Source of the DNA: Mycobacterium sp. ITM-2016-00318
GTDB lineage: Bacteria > Actinomycetota > Actinomycetes > Mycobacteriales > Mycobacteriaceae
Length of the DNA: 64,000 nt
Reading direction: 5' to 3'
NCBI RefSeq assembly: GCF_002968285.2
Contig: NZ_CP134400.1
Location: 5,394,001 to 5,458,000, forward strand
The translations under genes and the position numbers were made by a program. Positions 3,001-18,299 of this stretch are shown piece by piece. Numbering within the stretch: the stretch's first letter is position 1; each line of letters starts with the position of its first letter. The notes beneath the pieces were generated by a model. It was not told where the DNA came from. It saw only the letters and a list, made by a program, of their open reading frames with translations, and ran no database searches.

Positions 3001-4317
3001 AGGCGGTTCGGCGAGCACGACATGAGCGTTGGTGCCGCCGAAGCCGAACGAGTTGACCCCGGCTATGCGCCGTTCGCAGTCGGGGAACGGCCGGCCCGTT
3101 GCCGGCACCTCGATCTTCAGCTGCTCCAGCGACACGTGTCGGGTCGGCGTCCGAAGATGCAGATTGGCGGGGATGTGCCCGTGTTTGACCACCAACGCCG
3201 CTTTGATCAGCCCGGCCACACCGGCGCCCGCCTCCAGGTGCCCGATATTGGTCTTGACCGATCCGATCACAAGCGGACTGGTCGCCGGTCGATCCGACGT
3301 CAACGCGCTCGCCAGTGCGCGCATCTCGATGGGATCGCCGACCGGAGTGCCCGTGCCGTGTGCCTCGACGTACCCGACCTCGGCCGGCCACACGCCCGCT
3401 CGTTCGAGAGCAGTTCTGATCGCCGCTTCCTGGGCCTCCTCGCGTGGCACGGTGATGCCGTCGGTGTGGCCGTCCTGCGAAACGGCGGTGCCGAGGATCT
3501 GAGCGTAGATTTCGTCGTGGTCGCGAAGGGCGTGCTCGAGCGGTTTGATGATGACGACCGCGCCGCCTTCTCCGCGCGCGTATCCGTCGGCGGAGTCGTC
3601 GAACGCCTTGGAACGTCCTTCGGGACTGAGGAATCCGCTTTTCGACTCCGCGATCGCGGTATTCGGCCCGATCATGATGTTCACGCCGCCGGCGAGAGCG
3701 ACATCACACTCGCCGTTCCAGATGCTCTGCGCCGCAAGATGTACCGCAACCAGCGAGCTCGAACACGCCGTGTCGACGGTCATGCTGGGTCCGCGGAAGT
3801 CGAACGCATGAGAGATGCGGTTCGCCAGCATCGTCATCATCATCCCCGTCGACGAATGCGACTTGAACCGGTACCGACTTGTGCGACCCTGGTTTTGAAG
3901 CAGCTGGTAATCGAGGGTGAAGCCGCCGACGAAGACGCCGACGTCGGTGCCCGCCAGATCGTCGGCGGGAATTCCCCCGTCCTCCAAAGCCTCCCACGCG
4001 ACCTGTAGCAGAAGACGTTGCTGCGGATCGAGTGAATGGGCCTCGCGCGGGGACATCCCGAAGAACTGGGGGTCGAATTGATCGATCTCGCGCAGGAAAC
4101 CTCCCCGCCGGGTCACGATCTTGCCGGCCTTCGACGGATTCGGGTCGTGGTATCGCGCGGCGTCCCACCGTGTTTCGGGGACCACGCAGGTGGCATCCGT
4201 ATCGTTGACCAGCAGGCTCCACAGGGTGTCCGCGGAGTCAGCCTCGCCAGGAAGCCGGCATCCGATTCCAACGATTGCCAGCGGTTCGTGGCTTCTGTCT
4301 GTGGTCAGTGTGGTCAT
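1..4317 (-). CDS. Type I modular polyketide synthase (KS-AT-DH-KR...), 3' end outside window
   Basis: The first 1,439 residues of a type I PKS are visible; the C-terminus (rest of the ketoreductase and presumably an acyl carrier protein) lies beyond the left edge. The ketosynthase comes first, with catalytic Cys185 in DTACSSS, His320 in EAHGTGT and His360 in NIGH. An acyltransferase follows with Ser632 in GHSAGE. A dehydratase has His935 in HxxxGxxxxP and Asp1099 in HPALIDG. About 230 residues of structural ketoreductase subdomain lead to the NADPH motif VVTGGAGA at the window edge. No enoylreductase lies between dehydratase and ketoreductase. Such a module would condense an extender unit and reduce it to an enoyl product. 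The ATG at 4317 follows the halogenase-like gene by 44 bp, so the two are probably one operon. Product and extender are unknown; the acyltransferase reads YHTH where HAFH (malonyl) or YASH (methylmalonyl) is usual. Confidence 0.95.
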   Translation of the reverse strand, partial: MTTLTTDRSHEPLAIVGIGCRLPGEADSADTLWSLLVNDTDATCVVPETRWDAARYHDPNPSKAGKIVTRRGGFLREIDQFDPQFFGMSPREAHSLDPQQRLLLQVAWEALEDGGIPADDLAGTDVGVFVGGFTLDYQLLQNQGRTSRYRFKSHSSTGMMMTMLANRISHAFDFRGPSMTVDTACSSSLVAVHLAAQSIWNGECDVALAGGVNIMIGPNTAIAESKSGFLSPEGRSKAFDDSADGYARGEGGAVVIIKPLEHALRDHDEIYAQILGTAVSQDGHTDGITVPREEAQEAAIRTALERAGVWPAEVGYVEAHGTGTPVGDPIEMRALASALTSDRPATSPLVIGSVKTNIGHLEAGAGVAGLIKAALVVKHGHIPANLHLRTPTRHVSLEQLKIEVPATGRPFPDCERRIAGVNSFGFGGTNAHVVLAEPPAPHPRAGRDQPATWAPAILPISARSEDALAATAGRLAGYLDVHPQASLADLLYTLGRRRAHLNHRQALVVGTIGEAREQLQALADGGQISTNRVGAAAPKLAFVCSGMGPQWWGMCRDLLDVSPAFRDSIVRTDRALARYTTWSLLDELCRDEASSRMGDTEIAQPANFAIQIALAEQLAQFGVAPDAVIGHSAGEVAAHHLAGLLTFEQAIEVIYHRSRLQQRTSGQGRMLAVGLDSEALMQTIDDEARGEFGRRISVAAINSPSAVTIAGDSGILDDIARQLNEAGVFHRYLVGKVPYHTHYMETVKDDLFRAFDGLSSKAAALPLYSTVTGERLDGYQSGDAYWWQNTRATVLFEPAVRRMLEDGYTHFVELGPHPVLAASILETAGTQRISVIATQRRDQDDNRTLLKSVGELHCAGYDISWNGGHAHHRGRLLKLPSYPWQTKRYWNETQETVEALFYHPVHPLLGQPVSAVHPTWEVELSTVVNAFLADHRVQGSVVVPAAVYVEMALAAAKATYGSSHSVDNLELRRAVILDEACDPILRTTLNEDDGTLEFTAFTATADGESKWTITATAELSTLPAAPRPENAQPDADQITTIGGEDFYLRTQAIGFDYGDAFRSVHGVTAGEDWAVAEIAVPASLVGELDEYQFHPALIDGAFQTLFGAPFLGQVSNDEPYLPTRIRHCAVYGSVEQTMRVHVRVLSATREHVESDITITDHAGTPLAVIDGFVVQSLSASSRMSPDHIDKGLLEVQWCAVDDSAATDGQHEAPVGPSSWLVLVDDTGVGTTVTEQLRLRGHRVHRVEHRPVDALIETGDSVVLNAGRADQIGQLLTHFGDHRDLAGIVNCWPLDIPGGNDDQTHHLGAFTVLRLVKALAEHDTVKPRLFLVTANAQPAPGNPLSSVDQAAIWGLGRVIGHQEFPEHWGGLIDIDRADDLAVTATRICEHLLDDGPEDQIAIRGKTTFVPRLRSCDGLTKPFPTKLTPDAAYVVTGGAGA

Positions 4318-4361
4318 CCTGGGAGTGCTTCCGTCCGGCGGCAACGCGAATTGGTCGTCAA

Positions 4362-6131
4362 TCAACTGGGCTGAAGTATCGGTGCCGATGCGACGATCCA
4401 GTCCCCGCTGATCGGGTCCGCCGGTTGTTCTCGACGGTAGAGCGACCGCAGTTCGCGCAACAGCGGATCTCGTTGCCACGCTTGTATCTGCCTCATCGCG
4501 CTGTCGTCTCCGAACATCGCCGACTTGTCGGTGAGAACGGTCTCGAAAAGCTGGCCGGCCAAGCGGCGCAGCAGCCGGGCGTTGGCGTCGAACTGCTCGG
4601 TGAAGTCGGGGTTCGTCCCCATCATCGCGGTGTGGAGCGTCACCATGAAGTTCAGTGGTGAATACAAGTCCACGAACGGCGCCGACGGCGTGCCGTTCTC
4701 GACCGCTGCCCACTCCCGGAAGAAGCGCTGGACGCGATTGCTCAGCGCGATGAGCCCGTCGAGTTGAGGGACGAAACCCGGATCGTCGGCAAGTGTCACG
4801 AAGCGATCGTTCATGTAGAGCAAACCGATGAAACCCCAGTAGAACGCCACGTCCCAGATGATCTTCGCCGACATCACGATCGGCGTGCCCATCAACGTGT
4901 ACTGATCCTGGTACACGGCCAACCACATCTCGGTGAGGGATCGGAACAGGGCGTCGCTGATGTGCGACCGGGCGACGACATCCTCACCATCGAGGTGGCG
5001 GACGACCATGTCGGTGATCAGGCCGTTGCCGATGGCGACGAGGTCGAGCCCTGACGAATACAACGGGTCGAGGAACACCCCTGCGTCGCCCGTCAGGCAC
5101 CAGCGGCGCGAACCGTCGAAGACTTTCGTCGCACCATGGCTGTACTTCTTCATCACGCGGAAGTCCATGATCGCATCGGCGCTCTCGGCGATGACCGCCG
5201 CGCACTGCGGCTCGTGTTTGCGCAGCCATGCCCTCGACTTCTCCAGCGTGTTGAACGATTCGAACGCGTGGACGTCAGGGTCCGCCACGATCCCGACGCT
5301 GGTGGCGCTGGAGGCCAGTCGAATGAGCCAGACCCAGTAACCCTCGCCCATCAGGTGATTGGTGGACATCGCGCGATCGCCCTCGACAAGGCGCCCCTGC
5401 CAGGTGGGATCATCGCTCCAGCGACCGATGTCGATCTCGGTCGCGACGCGAAACCACGCGGCGTTGCACCGGTGGTCGTTGGCCTGCTTCAGATCCAATT
5501 GCCGCGGCAACATCCGGTTGCGGCCCGAAGCGTCGATCACCCACCGTGCCGACGTGCCGCTGACAGAGTCCCCACGCTGAACGGTGATGCGGTGCGGATT
5601 GCCCGATGCGCCCAGCTCGACCGAGCGGACTCGCCCGTGAGCGAATTCGATGCCGTTCGAAGCGCAGCGTCGCGCGAGCTCGTTCTCCAGTCTGCCTCGA
5701 TCGATCTGGTAGGTCACCTGCGGAACGAACGAAGAGCTGCCGAGTTCCATCCGCTGTGCGATATCGGCGTTCGCGTTCTTCGAGAAGAACATCCTCAGCC
5801 CCATCTTGCGTAGCTGAGCGGACTGCAGATGGTCGGCCAGCCCCAGTTGGTCGCGTAGATAGTGCGCGGAGACCTCGACGGTGGACTCGCCGACAGTGTG
5901 GGTGATCTCCGGTATCGGATGGGGGTTCGGCTCGATGATCAGGATCCGGGTGGTCGGGCGCGCCCGCCGGATCTGCAGCGCGAGGGTGAGTGCGGCGACT
6001 CCGCCTCCCACGATGGACACGTCGTGGTCGGCTTCGGGCTGATCGACGCGGGGGAGGCGAGACCTGATCCGTCGTGCGAGAGCCTCCCGTGTCTCTTCGC
6101 TCAATTGAGACACCTGTGCCCGCACGTCCAC
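4362..6131 (-). CDS. FAD-dependent halogenase-family enzyme (tryptophan halogenase-like)
   Basis: A 589-residue flavoprotein. After a helical N-terminal leader (LSEETREALARRIRSR) comes the FAD-binding motif VGGGVAA (41-47). WVWLIR at 266-271 corresponds to the WxWxIP signature of flavin-dependent halogenases, with Arg for Pro. TGDAGVFLDPLYSSGLDL (from 348) is the second FAD contact typical of this family. Lys109 lies roughly where the catalytic lysine of PrnA-type halogenases is found. Family knowledge suggests FADH2-dependent halogenation, or oxidation, of a carrier-bound or free substrate; the altered motif leaves this open. The start is GTG at 6131, preceded six bases upstream by GGGAGGG. 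The gene sits directly upstream of the PKS, so the PKS intermediate or product is the likely substrate. Confidence 0.85.
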   Translation of the reverse strand: MDVRAQVSQLSEETREALARRIRSRLPRVDQPEADHDVSIVGGGVAALTLALQIRRARPTTRILIIEPNPHPIPEITHTVGESTVEVSAHYLRDQLGLADHLQSAQLRKMGLRMFFSKNANADIAQRMELGSSSFVPQVTYQIDRGRLENELARRCASNGIEFAHGRVRSVELGASGNPHRITVQRGDSVSGTSARWVIDASGRNRMLPRQLDLKQANDHRCNAAWFRVATEIDIGRWSDDPTWQGRLVEGDRAMSTNHLMGEGYWVWLIRLASSATSVGIVADPDVHAFESFNTLEKSRAWLRKHEPQCAAVIAESADAIMDFRVMKKYSHGATKVFDGSRRWCLTGDAGVFLDPLYSSGLDLVAIGNGLITDMVVRHLDGEDVVARSHISDALFRSLTEMWLAVYQDQYTLMGTPIVMSAKIIWDVAFYWGFIGLLYMNDRFVTLADDPGFVPQLDGLIALSNRVQRFFREWAAVENGTPSAPFVDLYSPLNFMVTLHTAMMGTNPDFTEQFDANARLLRRLAGQLFETVLTDKSAMFGDDSAMRQIQAWQRDPLLRELRSLYRREQPADPISGDWIVASAPILQPS

Positions 6132-6284
6132 GCTCTACCCTCCCGGTCGCCTTAGCAGGAGGCGACTGCCGCCGCCGAAGTCCGCCACAATTCGAGCGAA
6201 TCACATCTACGGCAGCGAAGGGTCGTCGAGCGGATTACCGAATGCTGACGTCTCGGCGCGCGGCTTTCTCAGTCAGCGATGCGG

Positions 6285-7157
6285 TCACTGATGCGGCGAG
6301 AGGCTCTCCGCGGCCGCCGGAGTTGTCGCGATGAAGTCGTCGATGAGGTCCACCACTTCGTTCGGCGCCTCGACGTGCGCGAAGTGACCAACATTGGGCA
6401 GCACTTCGAGGCGGCAATCCGGCCGCGCCTCCAATGCCGCGTAAGCGTGGTCGACGGGAATGATGGCGTCGTCCTCACCCCAGATGGCCAGGGTGGGCAG
6501 GTCGGCTCTGAGCTGCAGGCGATTCAAGGCGCTGACGGACTGCCCTCGGTAGTCGACGACCGAGCGGAGGGTGCGCAGAAACGACCCGCGGGTGGCAGCA
6601 TCGGAGAACGACGAGTATGCGCTCCACATCTCCGCGCCACGTGGTGATCGAAGGCCCAACGACGACAACCACGACTTCAGTGAATCACCGGCGCGCAGAA
6701 CGAAACCCGGCGCAATGACCGGCATGACCAATTCGGCGCCCGGTGCCGAGAGCAAGCGAAGGACCCACCCGACGTCCGGGCCCAGCCCGCCACTGCTGAT
6801 GAGCACAAGCCGACGGCAGTAGTCGGGATGCTGGTACAGGAACTGCATCGCGATCCCGCCGCCGAGCGACTGACCGACCACGGTCGCCGCGCTCACCTCG
6901 AGTTCGTCGAGCAGGTCGCGCAGTCCGACCGCAAACGCGCCGAGCGAATAGTCGGTCCGCGGCTTGGCCGACCGCCCGTGGCCCAGCAGATCGGGCGCGA
7001 TCACCCGGTACCGCCTGGCCAGCCGGGGCAATACTTCCCGCCAGGTCTGAGAACTGCCCGCCATGCCGTGAATCAGCAGAACCGTCTCGCCCTGGCCCTC
7101 GTCGTAGTAGGCCAGCCGTTCCCCGTGGATCTCCAGGAATTTGTGTTCGAACAACAC
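6285..7157 (-). CDS. Alpha/beta hydrolase of the polyketide locus
   Basis: A 290-residue alpha/beta-hydrolase with an oxyanion-hole HGMAG near residue 30, nucleophile elbow GQSLGG with Ser97, an acid in WGEDDAIIP (about 235) and catalytic His in GHFAHVE (about 262). The triad is complete, so it should be active as an esterase, thioesterase or C-C hydrolase. No signal peptide is seen, so it is probably cytoplasmic. The GTG start at 7157 has GGAGG four bases upstream. It lies 153 bp upstream of the halogenase-like gene in the same direction and may release or edit the PKS product. The substrate cannot be read from sequence. Confidence 0.85.
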   Translation of the reverse strand: MLFEHKFLEIHGERLAYYDEGQGETVLLIHGMAGSSQTWREVLPRLARRYRVIAPDLLGHGRSAKPRTDYSLGAFAVGLRDLLDELEVSAATVVGQSLGGGIAMQFLYQHPDYCRRLVLISSGGLGPDVGWVLRLLSAPGAELVMPVIAPGFVLRAGDSLKSWLSSLGLRSPRGAEMWSAYSSFSDAATRGSFLRTLRSVVDYRGQSVSALNRLQLRADLPTLAIWGEDDAIIPVDHAYAALEARPDCRLEVLPNVGHFAHVEAPNEVVDLIDDFIATTPAAAESLSPHQ

Positions 7158-11781: not shown

Positions 11782-13164
11782 TCACCCCGGTTGTCGCACA
11801 AAGACACCTTCGACCACCACGGGGTGCATCAGGCCCTCGAAGGTGTAGACCTCCCGGCGACCCAAGCGCGTGATAGCGCTGACTTTGTCCCAGTAGACAT
11901 CGTTCGTCGCAAGGTCGTGCAGAACCGGATCGTCCATGACGCCGGCAATTCGGTGCAGCCTTGTCCGACCCGGCGCGTGTGTCCACATGCGCGGACCATC
12001 GAATCTGGTGTTAGTCGCAACCGCGAAATCCATCTCCGACCAGTTACGTTGTTTAAGTGAGGCTTTGACGCGAGTCCATATCTCGATTGGAATCGTGTCT
12101 CTACCGGGTCGGCGTGTTCGCCCAGCAAGCTGGCGGATAACCTCTCTGGCCTTCACTCCACGCTCGCCGTGCACCCCTACCTTGGTGAGGAACACAATCT
12201 GGTTGGCAGCGCGATTGATAGTCAGGTGCCAGCAATCGCGATAGCCCTCCTTCGTCGTCCGGGTAATGCTGCTCTGTACTCCCATACGTAAGAGCAGGTT
12301 CACAACGTCATCGATCAGCCGTCGGCTAGTCGAGGCGTAGTACACCTGCCCGTGCGCTATGTTGGCGTCCCAGCGCACCGACCCATCTGTAGCCCATAGA
12401 TGCCGCAAAAATAGGGCGACCTGTTCATTCGGCAGTGCGAAAATCTCCCTCGGCACGAATTTCTCGTGACTTCTCATGCCGAAGAGGCCGAGACCGTCTA
12501 GCCATTCGGCGATCGGGTTGCGCTTGCCGTGTGTCAGACGATAGGGCGCTCGCAATCGCAAAGTCGTCACCCGAGCGGCCGCGTATTCGTCGCGGACCGG
12601 TGTCACGCCGAAATGTGCTGCTGCAATCGTCACAGCTGCGAGATTGTTCTCATCGACTGATGCGTAGCGAATCGGCTGTCGCTTGACGCAAGAGCCGTCG
12701 CCAATCATGTGCGCCAGCATGATGATCTCTGAATCATGCATAGGCGTTGGATGAGCCGGCTCGGGCAGTCGCCGAGGGACTGCGATCCGGCTGCCAGAAC
12801 TCAGTTTCGTCGGTGAACTCCAGCCATCCACCATGAGCACTTCTTGGCCGGACGTCATGTCGAGAGCCCGCCCCGATGCGAGGGTCAGCCTTGAGACTTC
12901 TCGATTACGGATCAGAATCCGTCCCGTTGCACGTCGCTTCGTCAGGCGCATCCTGTCGTCTATCGACCACAGAAGCGGTTTGTCGGGTGCGATTATCAGC
13001 TCGTTGAGGGGCGCTTCAAATCCGTTATCTGCTCTCGAGACTCGAGGTCGCTGCGACGCCGTCTGATCTGACAGTGAAGGCTGAGGCTCACGACTTGCCC
13101 GCCTCAAACCGTCCGGTTCAAGGTCTACGTCACAGACGGTCGCGGGATCTTCCAGCTCTGCCAT
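11782..13164 (-). CDS. Free-standing LAGLIDADG homing endonuclease derived from a mycobacterial DnaB intein
   Basis: 460 residues without an extein. From about residue 36 to the end it follows, by recall, the layout of the intein found in M. tuberculosis DnaB: SRADNG, LWSIDDR, LTLASGRAL, VPRRLPEP, GDGSCVKRQPIRYASVDE, LFLRHLW, YYASTSRRLIDD, GVHGERG, VYWD. Two dodecapeptide motifs keep their acidic residues (MLAHMIGDG with Asp156; LFLRHLWATDG with Asp260), so DNA cleavage looks possible. The splicing residues are gone: no Cys/Ser1 junction at the N-terminus, block B reads TSGQ (104-107) instead of TxxH, and the C-terminal His-Asn plus nucleophile is Arg457-Gln458-Pro-Gly. It starts at ATG 13164, about 110 bp downstream of dnaB in the same orientation; no clear ribosome site is visible. 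The 35-residue leader matches nothing I know. Confidence 0.85.
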   Translation of the reverse strand: MAELEDPATVCDVDLEPDGLRRASREPQPSLSDQTASQRPRVSRADNGFEAPLNELIIAPDKPLLWSIDDRMRLTKRRATGRILIRNREVSRLTLASGRALDMTSGQEVLMVDGWSSPTKLSSGSRIAVPRRLPEPAHPTPMHDSEIIMLAHMIGDGSCVKRQPIRYASVDENNLAAVTIAAAHFGVTPVRDEYAAARVTTLRLRAPYRLTHGKRNPIAEWLDGLGLFGMRSHEKFVPREIFALPNEQVALFLRHLWATDGSVRWDANIAHGQVYYASTSRRLIDDVVNLLLRMGVQSSITRTTKEGYRDCWHLTINRAANQIVFLTKVGVHGERGVKAREVIRQLAGRTRRPGRDTIPIEIWTRVKASLKQRNWSEMDFAVATNTRFDGPRMWTHAPGRTRLHRIAGVMDDPVLHDLATNDVYWDKVSAITRLGRREVYTFEGLMHPVVVEGVFVRQPG

Positions 13165-13171
13165 GGTATGA

Positions 13172-13198
13172 GACTATTGATACCCCCCGACAATAGTC
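13172..13198. promoter_or_regulatory. Inverted repeat just upstream of the endonuclease start
   Basis: The 8-bp arms GACTATTG and CAATAGTC flank an 11-base spacer and end 8 bp before the ATG at 13164. The spot suits an operator or a hairpin controlling translation of the endonuclease; a weak dnaB terminator is another possibility. Confidence 0.4.
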
Positions 13199-13273
13199 GC
13201 TTACCGGATCATCTTGCAGCATTAGCTTATTCACTGTCACGGGAGCGGCTGGGGACGAAGCGATGCACCCGCG

Positions 13274-14656
13274 TCACTTCGCCATATTAGTGAAACGCGA
13301 GAGATGCAGTTGATGCGCGACCGTGACAGTCTTTGTCGGGCCGTTGCGATGCTTGGCGATGATGAGGTCAGCTTCACCGCCGCGGGGATCGTCTCGTTCG
13401 AAGGCGTCGGGCCGATGCAGCAGGATAACCATGTCGCTGTCCTGCTCAATGCTGCCGGATTCCCTTAGATCAGCTAACATTGGCTTCTTGTCTGTGCGCT
13501 GCTCGGGTCCACGGTTCAGCTGACTCATCGCCACAACAGGAACCTCGAGTTCCTTCGCCAAAAGCTTTATCTGGCGAGAGAATTCGGAGACTTCCTGCTG
13601 ACGTGACTCGACCTTCTTGCCGGATGTCATCAGCTGCAAGTAGTCAATGACGATCAGCTTGAGATCGTGCTTTTGCTTGAGTCGGCGCGCCTTGGCGCGG
13701 ATCTCCATCATCATCAGGTTGGGCGAGTCGTCGATATATAGAGGCGCCTCGCTGATCTCACTCATCCGTCGCGCCAAGCGCGTCCAGTCGTCGTCGCTCA
13801 TCCGGCCGGAGCGCATATCCGTCAGCTTGATCTTTGCCTCCGCCGACAAGAGTCGCATCACAATCTCGGACTTGCTCATCTCCAATGAGAAGATGACGCT
13901 CGCCATCCGGTTTTTGATTGAGCACGAGCGCAAAAAATCCAAACCGAGCGTGCTTTTGCCGACGCCGGGCCTCGCCGCGATCACCACCATCTGTCCGGCA
14001 TGCAAGCCGTTGGTGAGCTCATCGAGCTCCAGGAAACCCGTCGGCACACCTGCGGCCAGCCCGCCGTTCGACGCGATCGCGTCAATCTCGTCCATCGTCG
14101 GCTGCAGGAGGTCTTCCAGCGCGACGAAGTCCTCTGACGTGCGGCCGTCGGTGACGTCGTAGATCTCGGCCTGCGCGCGGTCGACGATCTCGGCGACATC
14201 GGCGCCCTCTGCGCCCGCATAGCCGTACTGGACAACGCGCGTGCCCGCGTCCACGAGCCGACGCAGCAGCGCCTTCTCCGCGACGATGGTCGCGTAGTAA
14301 CCGGCGTTGGCGGCGGTCGGCACGGTCGAGATCAGCGTGTGCAGATAAGGGGCCCCGCCGATGCGGCGGAGGAGGCCGCGTCGGTCGAGTTCGGCGGCGA
14401 CAGTCACAGCGTCCGCGGGCTCGCCGCGACCGTAAAGATCGAGGATGGCGTCGTAGACGCTTTGGTGATTGGGCCGGTAGAAATCGCCGGGCCGTAGCCG
14501 CTCGAGCACGTCGGCGATGGCGTCCTTGCTCAGCAGCATGCCGCCGAGGACCGCCTGTTCTGCGGCCTCGTCTTGCGGTGGCTGGCGACCGAAGTCTTCG
14601 GAAGGCGGTGAAACGTCGTCGATACCGGAACGGCCACGGTCATCCACGACAGCCAC
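13274..14656 (-). CDS. dnaB: Replicative DNA helicase DnaB (intein-free)
   Basis: 460 residues. The N-terminal DnaB domain (EQAVLGGMLLSKDAIADVLE, DFYRPNHQSVYDAI) is joined by a linker to the RecA-type motor with Walker A ARPGVGKST, Walker B LIVIDYLQL, the SQLNRGPEQR segment and the C-terminal HRNGPTKTVTVAH. It forms the hexameric helicase that unwinds DNA ahead of the replisome. The start is GTG 14656, preceded by GGAGGGGAGGT eight bases upstream; this agrees with the usual mycobacterial N-terminus AVVDD. The sequence LADLRESGS/IEQDSD, where the M. tuberculosis DnaB intein inserts, is uninterrupted here (junction at 13450/13451), and the P-loop site is also empty. It lies downstream of the rpsF-ssb-rpsR-rplI operon behind a hairpin and a 432-bp gap. 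Confidence 0.98.
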   Translation of the reverse strand: MAVVDDRGRSGIDDVSPPSEDFGRQPPQDEAAEQAVLGGMLLSKDAIADVLERLRPGDFYRPNHQSVYDAILDLYGRGEPADAVTVAAELDRRGLLRRIGGAPYLHTLISTVPTAANAGYYATIVAEKALLRRLVDAGTRVVQYGYAGAEGADVAEIVDRAQAEIYDVTDGRTSEDFVALEDLLQPTMDEIDAIASNGGLAAGVPTGFLELDELTNGLHAGQMVVIAARPGVGKSTLGLDFLRSCSIKNRMASVIFSLEMSKSEIVMRLLSAEAKIKLTDMRSGRMSDDDWTRLARRMSEISEAPLYIDDSPNLMMMEIRAKARRLKQKHDLKLIVIDYLQLMTSGKKVESRQQEVSEFSRQIKLLAKELEVPVVAMSQLNRGPEQRTDKKPMLADLRESGSIEQDSDMVILLHRPDAFERDDPRGGEADLIIAKHRNGPTKTVTVAHQLHLSRFTNMAK

Positions 14657-15088
14657 CGCGGCCCACCTCCCCTCCAGCGCTCGAACGTGCGTTCGAAGAA
14701 CCTTATCGCGACTGTAAGTCAAACCCCCGACGGGGACAACCTCCCCGGCACCGCCACAGCCTTGCGACGGCCAACGCTAGACGTTGCTGGAGAGACCGCA
14801 AGGGGGGCCTGTTCATGAACCTGTGGATGGGGTGTGGATATCTCCGCTCGGCCGTGTTGAGGTCTTGGGGAGAACCTGTGGAAGAACGCCGGTGTGAACC
14901 ACATCCCCGCAGATAAGCGGACCACAGGGGTGGGAGTTAGTTGTGGATGACAAATTCATCGGCGTGTCGGGCCGGGTTACGGCTTCGGGCGTGTTGTGTT
15001 TCACCTCAGCGCCCCCGAGGTTAACGGCAGGTTAGCTTCGCTGGGCGGATAAGGCCGATTACTGTTCGCCAGAAATTGCAGCAACGGC
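14657..15088. promoter_or_regulatory. Long intergenic region upstream of dnaB
   Basis: These 432 bp hold no credible gene. They contain the strong dnaB ribosome site at the left end, a group of TGTGGA (TCCACA) cores at 14822-14947 and a lower-GC stretch near 14930-15000 (GTTAGTTGTGGATGACAAAT). The dnaB promoter must lie here. Confidence 0.6.
14821..14949 (-). promoter_or_regulatory. Cluster of four DnaA-box-like sites upstream of dnaB
   Basis: Four copies of TGTGGA in one orientation begin at 14822, 14833, 14877 and 14942 (CTGTGGATG, GTGTGGATA, CTGTGGAAG, TTGTGGATG). On the dnaB strand each reads TCCACA, the core of the mycobacterial DnaA box TT(G/C)TCCACA. One TCCACA hexamer per ~2 kb is expected by chance on two strands, so four in 130 bp is notable. 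Binding by DnaA is inferred only. Confidence 0.5.
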
Positions 15089-16973: not shown

Positions 16974-18299
16974 TTGGCCGTGTTCTCCGAGACGCGCTAC
17001 GCCCGCAACGGGGATCTGCGCGTCGCTTATCGCGCATCTGCGCCCGGTGAGCGCGACATCGTGTTCGTGCCGAACTGGTTCACCTGTTGCGAAGTCATCC
17101 CAGAAATGCCGGTCTTTCAAGGCTGGATCGAAGCGATGGCCTCGCTAGGTCGGTTCGTCTTCTTCGATCAGCCTGGCACCGGCGGGTCGGACCCCGTCGC
17201 CTCGGGGGCACTGCCAACCCTGGAGCAGTGGACCGACAGCATCACAGCCGTACTCGACGAGCTGGGCAGCCGCGAAGCGGTCCTGCTCGCAGTCGACGGC
17301 GCGTTCGCGCCTGCGGCCCTCTACGCCGCGACGCATCCTTCGCGCACCACTGCACTCATCGCCCTCGAGTGTTATGCCCGCACGACAGGTGAACGCCGTG
17401 CGGACCGCACCGTCGACGAGTTCCGCACCGCAATGGCCGCGGCGTGGGGCACGGGCACGTTTCAAAGGGTGCTCAATCCGGAGATGCCATGGAATGAGGA
17501 GATACGTTCCGTGTGGGCGCGCCATGAACGCATGGCGGCGAGCCCGGGAATCGTTGCGCTCATGCTGCCGCTCCTCTTCGACTTGGACGTGCGGGCTCTC
17601 CTTCCGGCGATTCGGGTGCCGACCCTTATCGTGCAGCACACGGGCGACAGCATCATCACCGCCGAAATGGGCAAGTACCTTGCCGACCACATAACCGACG
17701 CGAAGTACGTCGAGCTCCCCGGACGCAACATGTACCAGTTGGTGGAACCGGGATGGCGCGCGTCGTTCCAGGAGGTCGCCGGGTTCCTCACCGGCCACCG
17801 GACCGATTTCGCAGACGACCGGGTTCTCGCCACCGTGCTGTTCACCGACATCGTCGGCTCGACGCGAATGGCCGCTCAACTCGGCGACAGCAACTGGCGC
17901 GCGCTGCTCGACGCGCACGACGCCGTCGTGCGGTCGCAGCTCACGCGTTTCCGCGGACGGGAGGTCAACACCTCCGGCGACGGCTTCCTCGCAACGTTCG
18001 ACGGTCCACAGCGGGCCATCCGCTGCGCCATGGCAATTCGCGATGCCGTGCAGGCGCTCGGCATCGAAGTGCGGGCGGGCTTGCACACCGGCGAGTGCGA
18101 ACTGCGCGGCGACGACATCGGCGGCATCGCCGTGCACATCGGCGCGCGGGTCAGCGCGCTCGCTCAGGCCAACGAAGTCCTCGTCTCGAGTACCTTGCGC
18201 GACCTGGTCATCGGGTCAGGGCTCGAATTCGACGACCGCGGCGCACACACACTCAAAGGCGTGCCGGGCGAATGGCATTTGTTCGCGGTGGCGACGTAG
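16974..18299 (+). CDS. Alpha/beta-hydrolase fused to a class III nucleotide cyclase domain
   Basis: 441 residues. Residues 1-270 have an alpha/beta-hydrolase layout (FVPNWFTCCEVIPEMP, FFDQPGTGGSDP, IRVPTLIVQHTGD). The nucleophile elbow reads LAVDGAF near 105, with Asp where the family has Ser, so hydrolysis is doubtful. Residues about 280-441 form a class III cyclase domain: VLFTDIVGST with the first metal Asp, NTSGDGFLATF with the second metal Asp, and HIGARVSALA with the transition-state Arg. The adenine-selecting Lys is Asn in this copy. It may make cAMP weakly or act as a regulator. Several mycobacterial cyclases share this hydrolase-cyclase architecture. The start is uncertain (TTG 16974 or GTG 16980) with no clear ribosome site. 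A long hairpin follows the stop. Confidence 0.85.
   Translation: MAVFSETRYARNGDLRVAYRASAPGERDIVFVPNWFTCCEVIPEMPVFQGWIEAMASLGRFVFFDQPGTGGSDPVASGALPTLEQWTDSITAVLDELGSREAVLLAVDGAFAPAALYAATHPSRTTALIALECYARTTGERRADRTVDEFRTAMAAAWGTGTFQRVLNPEMPWNEEIRSVWARHERMAASPGIVALMLPLLFDLDVRALLPAIRVPTLIVQHTGDSIITAEMGKYLADHITDAKYVELPGRNMYQLVEPGWRASFQEVAGFLTGHRTDFADDRVLATVLFTDIVGSTRMAAQLGDSNWRALLDAHDAVVRSQLTRFRGREVNTSGDGFLATFDGPQRAIRCAMAIRDAVQALGIEVRAGLHTGECELRGDDIGGIAVHIGARVSALAQANEVLVSSTLRDLVIGSGLEFDDRGAHTLKGVPGEWHLFAVAT

Follow-up and report, generated by a model that had tools for sequence, protein, structure and literature searches.

WHO elements of the yeasts Torulaspora and Lachancea encode an intein-derived LAGLIDADG protein that does not splice and lacks the last intein motif (PMC7282813; here and below, from the available part of that paper). 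Their genes lie behind the uninterrupted target gene FBA1, some of them inverted, and fragments of the FBA1 3′ end are found behind them. In the model put forward for these elements, the nuclease cuts the host gene, and repair copies a resistant 3′ end together with the endonuclease gene, the displaced old 3′ end serving as the second homology arm. Resistance is proposed to arise from allele differences in the 3′ end of the target, and cleavage has been shown in yeast (PMC7282813).

The mycobacterial DnaB helicase is host to inteins, of which the class 1, nuclease-bearing intein at DnaB site a in motif H4 (PMC6195587, available part) is the parent of the gene described here. The DnaB-b inteins are given as lacking endonucleases in the available part of PMC5050341. 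Among the genomes (G) and loci (L) that we compared, G018 (L062, 1-945) has a dnaB intein inserted in frame at the P-loop site that matches LAGLIDADG_3 with 24.3 bits, the cut-off being 22.5; the corresponding intein of G053 (L063) matches weakly, with 18.7 bits. Neither PMC5050341 nor PMC6195587 uses the words free-standing or standalone in its main text, and no bacterial case was found in the titles and abstract openings among the matches listed for open-licence literature on intein-derived and free-standing homing. In the literature found, spread by swapping the tail end of the target gene is described only in yeast. Here we describe a stand-alone gene behind dnaB in a 64,000-nucleotide stretch of Mycobacterium sp. 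ITM-2016-00318, referred to as the window, and compare it with its relatives.

Results

The window gene and the neighbouring dnaB

The features of the locus are collected in Table 1. The homing ORF starts with ATG and is the single copy of the gene in the genome. Residues 39-444 of the protein match the intein-bearing helicase profile PRK07773 of NCBIfam (E 8e-132), and a Pfam search at E ≤ 1 returned LAGLIDADG_3 (E 3e-23) and a weak Intein_splicing match that falls below its cut-off (26.7 vs 35.8 bits), with no zinc finger. Two LAGLIDADG motifs with their acidic residues are present in a single chain, and the traits of a class 1 DnaB intein that are absent include the Cys/Ser nucleophile at position 1 and the terminal His-Asn that precedes Ser+1. 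In the AlphaFold2 model (mean pLDDT 75.7) the strands of the splicing fold surround the nuclease domain; confidence is low for residues 1-37 and the surroundings of motif 1, and about 38 N-terminal residues are weakly conserved in the alignment. Translation confirms the 460-residue gene, the TSGQ block, Asp156, Asp260 and the non-splicing C-terminus that had been proposed by an earlier reading of the sequence alone (the sequence-only reading), and descent from the DnaB-a intein family is borne out by the PRK07773 match and by the trees described below.

Table 1. Coordinates of the homing gene, dnaB and their elements in the window
Feature	Position	Strand	Evidence
Homing endonuclease gene (LAGLIDADG, 460 aa), stand-alone, derived from a DnaB intein and splicing-dead	11782..13164	(-)	ORF, profile matches, alignment, tree
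LAGLIDADG motif 1, LAHMIGDGS with Asp156	12691..12717	(-)	Translation; Asp in 86/86 stand-alone rows
LAGLIDADG motif 2, LFLRHLWATDG with Asp260	12382..12414	(-)	Translation; Asp in 86/86 stand-alone rows
Degenerate intein block B, TSGQ (residues 104-107) for TxxH	12844..12855	(-)	Translation
Degenerate intein C-terminus, VRQPG-stop for His-Asn/Ser	11785..11799	(-)	Translation, clade A alignment
Complete intein-free dnaB, presumed target and source of resistance	13274..14722	(-)	ORF, profile matches
Empty intein site Gly423 (13454-13456)/Ser424 (13451-13453), DnaB site a, motif H4	13451..13456	(-)	Translation
Recoded left half-site CCA ATG TTA GCT GAT CTA AGG GAA TCC GGC, haplotype H1	13454..13483	(-)	
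dnaB residues 370-482, presumed replaced 3′ end	13277..13615	(-)	GC3 0.655 vs 0.838 for residues 53-355
Spacer between dnaB and homing gene, 109 bp	13165..13273	(-)	

The gene lies beside dnaB and not inside it, as the same reading had it. RESG/SIEQD is contiguous in the window DnaB (residues 423/424), so that dnaB is uninterrupted, and the homing gene is a separate ORF instead of the in-frame insertion of a class 1 DnaB intein. The two ORFs ahead of dnaB are read as rplI and ssb, and because it sits behind them we take this dnaB to be the ordinary chromosomal gene. A further ORF of the window, 16974-18299 (+), presumably encodes an alpha/beta hydrolase-like protein fused to an adenylate cyclase domain.

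Loss of splicing residues and constraint on the nuclease

Genomes and two protein searches (best 120 hits of each) yielded 86 stand-alone sequences, every one of which retains both LAGLIDADG Asp residues. Cys1 and the terminal Asn are both missing in 82 of them, and the block B His is kept in 10/86 rows, compared with 98/98 in-frame inteins; the same 98 rows all have Cys1, the terminal His and the Asn as well. Ten in-frame loci were omitted from the alignment as misfits to the extraction pattern. The proposed loss of splicing with retention of the nuclease motifs is supported. P0157, P0168 and P0187 are stand-alone-sized ORFs with Cys1, and in P0168 also the terminal Asn; they may have escaped from dnaB very recently, or may reflect artefacts of calling. 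Together with P0156 they were omitted from a quick tree of 180 rows.

Two groups of intact genes served for closer comparison, clade A (G000, which is the window genome, G316, G221, G180, G007, G101, G262 and G049) and set B (G323, G389, G004, G322, G093, G293, G342 and G090). In the eight clade A rows mean identity is 0.83 in the nuclease and 0.52 in the N-terminal splicing part, and in the eight set B rows 73% and 50%, with 70% in the C-terminal splicing part. The in-frame inteins (13 rows) follow the opposite trend, with 0.77 in the nuclease and 0.86 in the N-terminal splicing part. Codon differences in the clade A nuclease at positions 1/2/3 are 0.14/0.08/0.52, and the nuclease is therefore under strong constraint at the protein level. 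The seven other clade A genomes continue in the same frame into other non-splicing tails, VQSLGN, VQPLGD, VQARGK, VRWSTV and VEPQS among them. Since these relatives read on in the same frame, a recent frameshift in the window genome, to which the bases at the 3′ end had drawn attention, is rejected as the origin of the lost C-terminus.

In the trees, clade A forms a single group (support 100/100), a clade of 40 stand-alone rows receives an SH-aLRT of 100, and set B, which is monophyletic in 57% of bootstrap trees, falls among the in-frame inteins. A single clade for all stand-alone rows is rejected (p-AU 1.5e-4), and the quick tree requires at least four changes between the in-frame and stand-alone states, a count that does not distinguish gains from returns. 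The stand-alone genes form an old clade, with at least one further independent origin. The suggestion that an intein had left its host protein stands as far as the departure from DnaB is concerned; as a private jump of this genome it does not, in view of the old clade, the further origin and the rejected single clade. Among the matches listed, the closest relatives of the window protein are stand-alone proteins, and because these are themselves derived from DnaB inteins they do not speak against the proposed descent.

Distribution and neighbourhood

Some match at E ≤ 1e-3 is found in 184 of 396 same-genus genomes, many of these being in-frame DnaB inteins or remoter ones. An intact stand-alone relative is present in 16 of the 396. 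Fourteen of these adjoin dnaB, 13 on the same strand and one, in G316, inverted; the remaining two lie downstream at about 4.8 kb (G101) and 4.2 kb (G262). With the nearly complete broken copies of G054 (one stop) and G066 (split) there are 18 carriers, and in all 18, the two broken ones included, dnaB is uninterrupted at the intein site. Homology in set B starts 31-72 nt past the aligned dnaB end in 8/8 genomes. Another genus has three further stand-alone copies, as seen in 301 family genomes with matches at E ≤ 1e-60 only. Those of G585 and G652 are about 0.5 kb and 2.4 kb behind dnaB, and in G662 (L233) a stand-alone relative lies convergent behind a dnaB whose H4 site is occupied by an eroded in-frame intein (3716-4990, 5054-6289). 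Mycolicibacter heraklionensis Davo, among the best 80 of 205 relatives, has a split copy, with 264 nt between it and dnaB.

The two displaced copies, together with fragments located farther off, would suit an endonuclease that is mobile but whose target is elsewhere or undefined, its place behind dnaB recording only where it was born; the dnaB 3′ end would then evolve fast for another reason, for example past intein homing, which could itself convert the dnaB flanks. We consider this explanation unlikely in the light of the second dnaB 3′ ends, recoded sites and exchange boundaries presented below.

Broken relatives are common: the genes of G066 and L247 are split, that of G054 has one stop, that of G280 is truncated, and only fragments are present in G375, G302, G367 and G179. 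Such decay, and the drift of the N-terminal splicing part, might indicate that the window copy is open but inactive and on its way out after intein loss; the full-length window ORF with both catalytic Asp residues and the constraint on nuclease codon positions 1 and 2 across clade A make this quite improbable. The near-constant neighbourhood and the long-term constraint could also be accounted for if the former intein served the cell, for instance as a DNA-binding regulator of dnaB, and HO and WhiA are named as precedents in the available part of PMC7282813. Against such a role, the gene is confined to few species and patchily spread (on a 5′ tree of 53 chosen genomes the carriers are scattered, with 15 changes vs a shuffled mean of 14.5), both Asp residues persist in all stand-alone rows, and copies are inverted or displaced in some genomes, so that we regard domestication as very improbable indeed.

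Several smaller observations concern the fragments and possible carriers. Clade A fragments away from dnaB were seen in G367 (L033, at about 16 kb), in G179 (L034, about 28 kb from an in-frame intein) and on a separate contig of G389 (L046), and none of these three loci contains a DnaB match. G262 (L047) has a second, fragmentary relative at 4595-4797, which follows the intact copy at a distance of about 0.8 kb and is possibly a trace of an earlier element. A weak endonuclease match behind dnaB of G014 (E 0.008) was left out of the remnant count. Carriage by phages was rejected, with two phage records at 25-26% identity, and of 12 pattern matches in viral contigs none was confirmed as a relative. 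Plasmid carriage was likewise rejected (four plasmid records, the best from Nocardia farcinica at 57.5%).

Second dnaB 3′ ends behind the gene

Searches that started from the C-extein of each locus and from a majority C-extein detected, at E ≤ 0.012, a second 3′ end of dnaB in six of the 18 carriers (G066, G342, G054, G316, G221 and G049), which represent both clade A and set B. The same holds for G367, where an in-frame intein occurs together with a decayed clade A gene. Every remnant follows the endonuclease gene directly and in the same orientation, that of the inverted G316 included. At this threshold the 102 loci that lack a complete gene gave no match (best 0.044), and their 10 hits at E ≤ 0.2 are scattered in strand and place; the probability of 6/18 vs 0/102, calculated by hand, is about 5e-6. 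These 102 genomes, termed gene-free below, were drawn from 143 examined and include G280, G375 and G302, which contain pieces of the gene. No second 3′ end was found at E ≤ 0.012 in the other 12 carriers; in the window copy, too, the stretch behind the homing gene was searched and no old dnaB 3′ end found. Weak matches in G262 (E 0.061) and L051 were judged to be chance.

In L031 and L032 a complete dnaB is followed by the intein-derived gene and then by a C-extein. The remnants here span 48-49 residues, are identical to the intact end at 137/152 and 138/150 nt, and begin right after the stop codon of the gene, within the first C-extein codons. Old and new 3′ ends of G066 and G367 do not sort by type. 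The sequence-only reading held that the gene had moved about 110 bp downstream; the gap of 109 bp is there, and the order of the parts is better read as a new, complete dnaB 3′ end having come to lie ahead of the former intein, with the old end, in some relatives, apparently left behind it. Its recurrence in both groups is not what an endonuclease with its target elsewhere would lead one to expect.

Composition of the dnaB 3′ end and recoded sites

The last third of the window dnaB resembles the homing gene in composition and differs from the rest of dnaB, with a GC3 of 0.655 over residues 370-482 and 0.646 in the endonuclease gene, compared with 0.838 over residues 53-355. The same shift is seen in AT3 among the carriers. 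Over residues 53-255 clade A (0.115), set B (0.113) and gene-free genomes (0.111) do not differ, a small difference appears already over residues 265-355 (p 0.047), and over residues 370-482 the values are 0.326, 0.325 and 0.240, respectively, with p 1.2e-4 for carriers vs the 102 gene-free genomes and p 5.2e-5 vs 23 genomes with an in-frame intein. At the site itself, over residues 415-429, the increase is confined to set B (0.571) and absent from clade A (0.359; gene-free 0.347, in-frame 0.379), and this last result favours the view that dnaB is not the target.

Site haplotypes H1 and H2 were defined post hoc, and the group tests ignore relatedness. H1, CCA ATG TTA GCT GAY CTA with at most one mismatch allowed, was counted in 24 dnaB genes among the 396 genomes, in 7/18 carriers vs 17/378 others (p 2.5e-5), an enrichment that argues against a fossil position; an H1-pattern hit without dnaB at L078 is left out of these counts. 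In individual codons, GAA replaces GAG in 13/19 carriers vs 3/23 in-frame genomes and CCA replaces CCG in 12/19 vs 1/23, with G280 counted as a carrier in both. Five of the 18 carriers have neither haplotype (G221, G180, G007, G322 and G093), and the sites of the first three are close to the in-frame majority, as would be expected if the nuclease did not act there.

Among genomes without a complete gene, H1 is found in 17 and H2 in 13, and a clear gene remnant in only G375, G302 and G280 of these; in G375 and G302, both H1, it lies just behind dnaB. A second type of recoded site, TCT GAC CTG, is present without the gene in G011, G040, G352, G213, G314, G386, G246, G193, G297, G317, G300 and G198. 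The genomes of this type, G280 included, exceed every other group in AT3 in 6/7 dnaB segments from residue 370 onwards, and their dnaB genes are candidate scars of lost elements.

Proposed exchange of the dnaB 3′ end together with the gene

Closely related species with different genes show where the exchanged segment may begin. G322 and G293, whose set B genes differ, share 519/540 nt of upstream dnaB; over the last 240 nt of dnaB they agree at 209/240 (p 1.4e-5). A change-point falls 37 nt before the intein site, with 0 of 500 permutations as high (support -47 to -24 with the gene included, -156 to -24 for dnaB alone), and behind the gene identity is about 0.92 again. Such a boundary speaks against a gene whose place behind dnaB is a mere relic of its birth. 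G053, a relative without the gene, departs from G322 and G293 at -31 and -7 nt, with 4 and 0 of 500 permutations as high. Divergence begins at about -235 nt for G049 vs two relatives and at -217 nt for G101 vs G363. The test covered 12 pairs, and in four of them no change-point was found (53 to 108 of 500 permutations as high); the G066/G367 comparison is spoiled by the intein, and G262 was left out of comparisons that need its 5′ segment.

In G221 and G180 about 600 nt of the endonuclease gene are free of mismatches, upstream dnaB differs by 7% and the alignment is lost behind the gene. The change-point does not support a boundary at the intein site for this pair; the left boundary is not visible because the best change-point lies inside the endonuclease gene, and the pair suggests that the gene was transferred recently. 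G293 and G313, the latter without the gene, offer an occupied site and its empty counterpart: the sequence from about 0.4 kb behind the gene of G293 aligns with that from about 0.1 kb behind dnaB of G313, at 89.5% across 2212 nt. The excess of 3′ divergence among close pairs amounts to no more than a trend (15 carrier vs 27 control pairs, p 0.095). AU tests of the 3′ end, on a short stretch of 249 nt, reject 0/8 sets, a result that would also be consistent with an endonuclease with another target.

Discussion

The gene behind dnaB is probably a homing element that no longer splices, moving together with a dnaB 3′ end that resists cleavage and displacing the old end downstream, in the manner of the WHO elements. 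The protein comes from the class 1 DnaB intein of motif H4 (site a); according to this model, drawn from sequence comparisons, what is left of the intein fold would act as a scaffold only. Cleavage by the nuclease would most likely take place in sensitive dnaB alleles, at the old intein site or close to it, and repair from the carrier chromosome would copy the carrier dnaB 3′ end and the endonuclease gene as a unit. The dnaB of the carrier, its site being recoded, would stay uncut, and the recipient's own dnaB 3′ end would be pushed downstream, where it would then decay.

Whether bacteria have a non-splicing homing class of their own is a broader proposition, for and against which we find the balance even. 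Its members would have arisen from inteins repeatedly (at least twice, perhaps four or more times from DnaB), would move a resistant dnaB 3′ end plus endonuclease as one piece in an arms race that recodes dnaB, and would leave scars after nuclease loss. If bacteria provide an independent case, this would suggest that the class is a route generally open to inteins whose splicing is lost. The series of spliced intein, stand-alone gene, old 3′ ends and empty recoded sites makes the transition testable, and the model would account for the difference between the 3′ end and the remainder of an essential helicase gene.

Intronless homing genes of T4-like phages are comparable in that a free-standing nuclease adjoins its target gene and the host copy is protected by sequence differences. 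They differ in being phage-borne, mostly of other nuclease families and without intein ancestry, and we know of no left-behind target ends in these systems. The HO endonuclease of Saccharomyces is likewise a stand-alone, non-splicing nuclease of intein origin; in contrast to the dnaB-side gene it is domesticated, unlinked to its target and equipped with a zinc finger (PMC7282813, available part). With the class 1 mycobacterial DnaB-a intein, such as DnaBi2 of M. smegmatis, the gene shares the parent family, the order of parts, the nuclease motifs and the target region, but it lies outside the dnaB frame and lacks Cys1, the block B His and the terminal His-Asn, and its splicing domain is drifting (PMC6195587, available part).

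The likeness to the WHO elements, as these appear in the available part of PMC7282813, is closest. Both are non-splicing, intein-derived genes behind an uninterrupted host gene (14 of the 16 intact copies adjoin dnaB), with a host-gene 3′-end fragment behind the gene in 6/18 carriers and in G367, although not in the window. Unlike WHO, the dnaB-side gene is bacterial, has dnaB and not FBA1 as its target, with cleavage predicted, has no zinc finger and has more than one origin; it descends from the DnaB intein itself and not from the VMA1 intein line, and there is at most one intact copy per locus, with fragments in G262 and G367, and no large clusters. We therefore classify the dnaB-side gene as one that would work like a WHO element, yet is no member of that family, because no zinc finger was found and its descent is separate.
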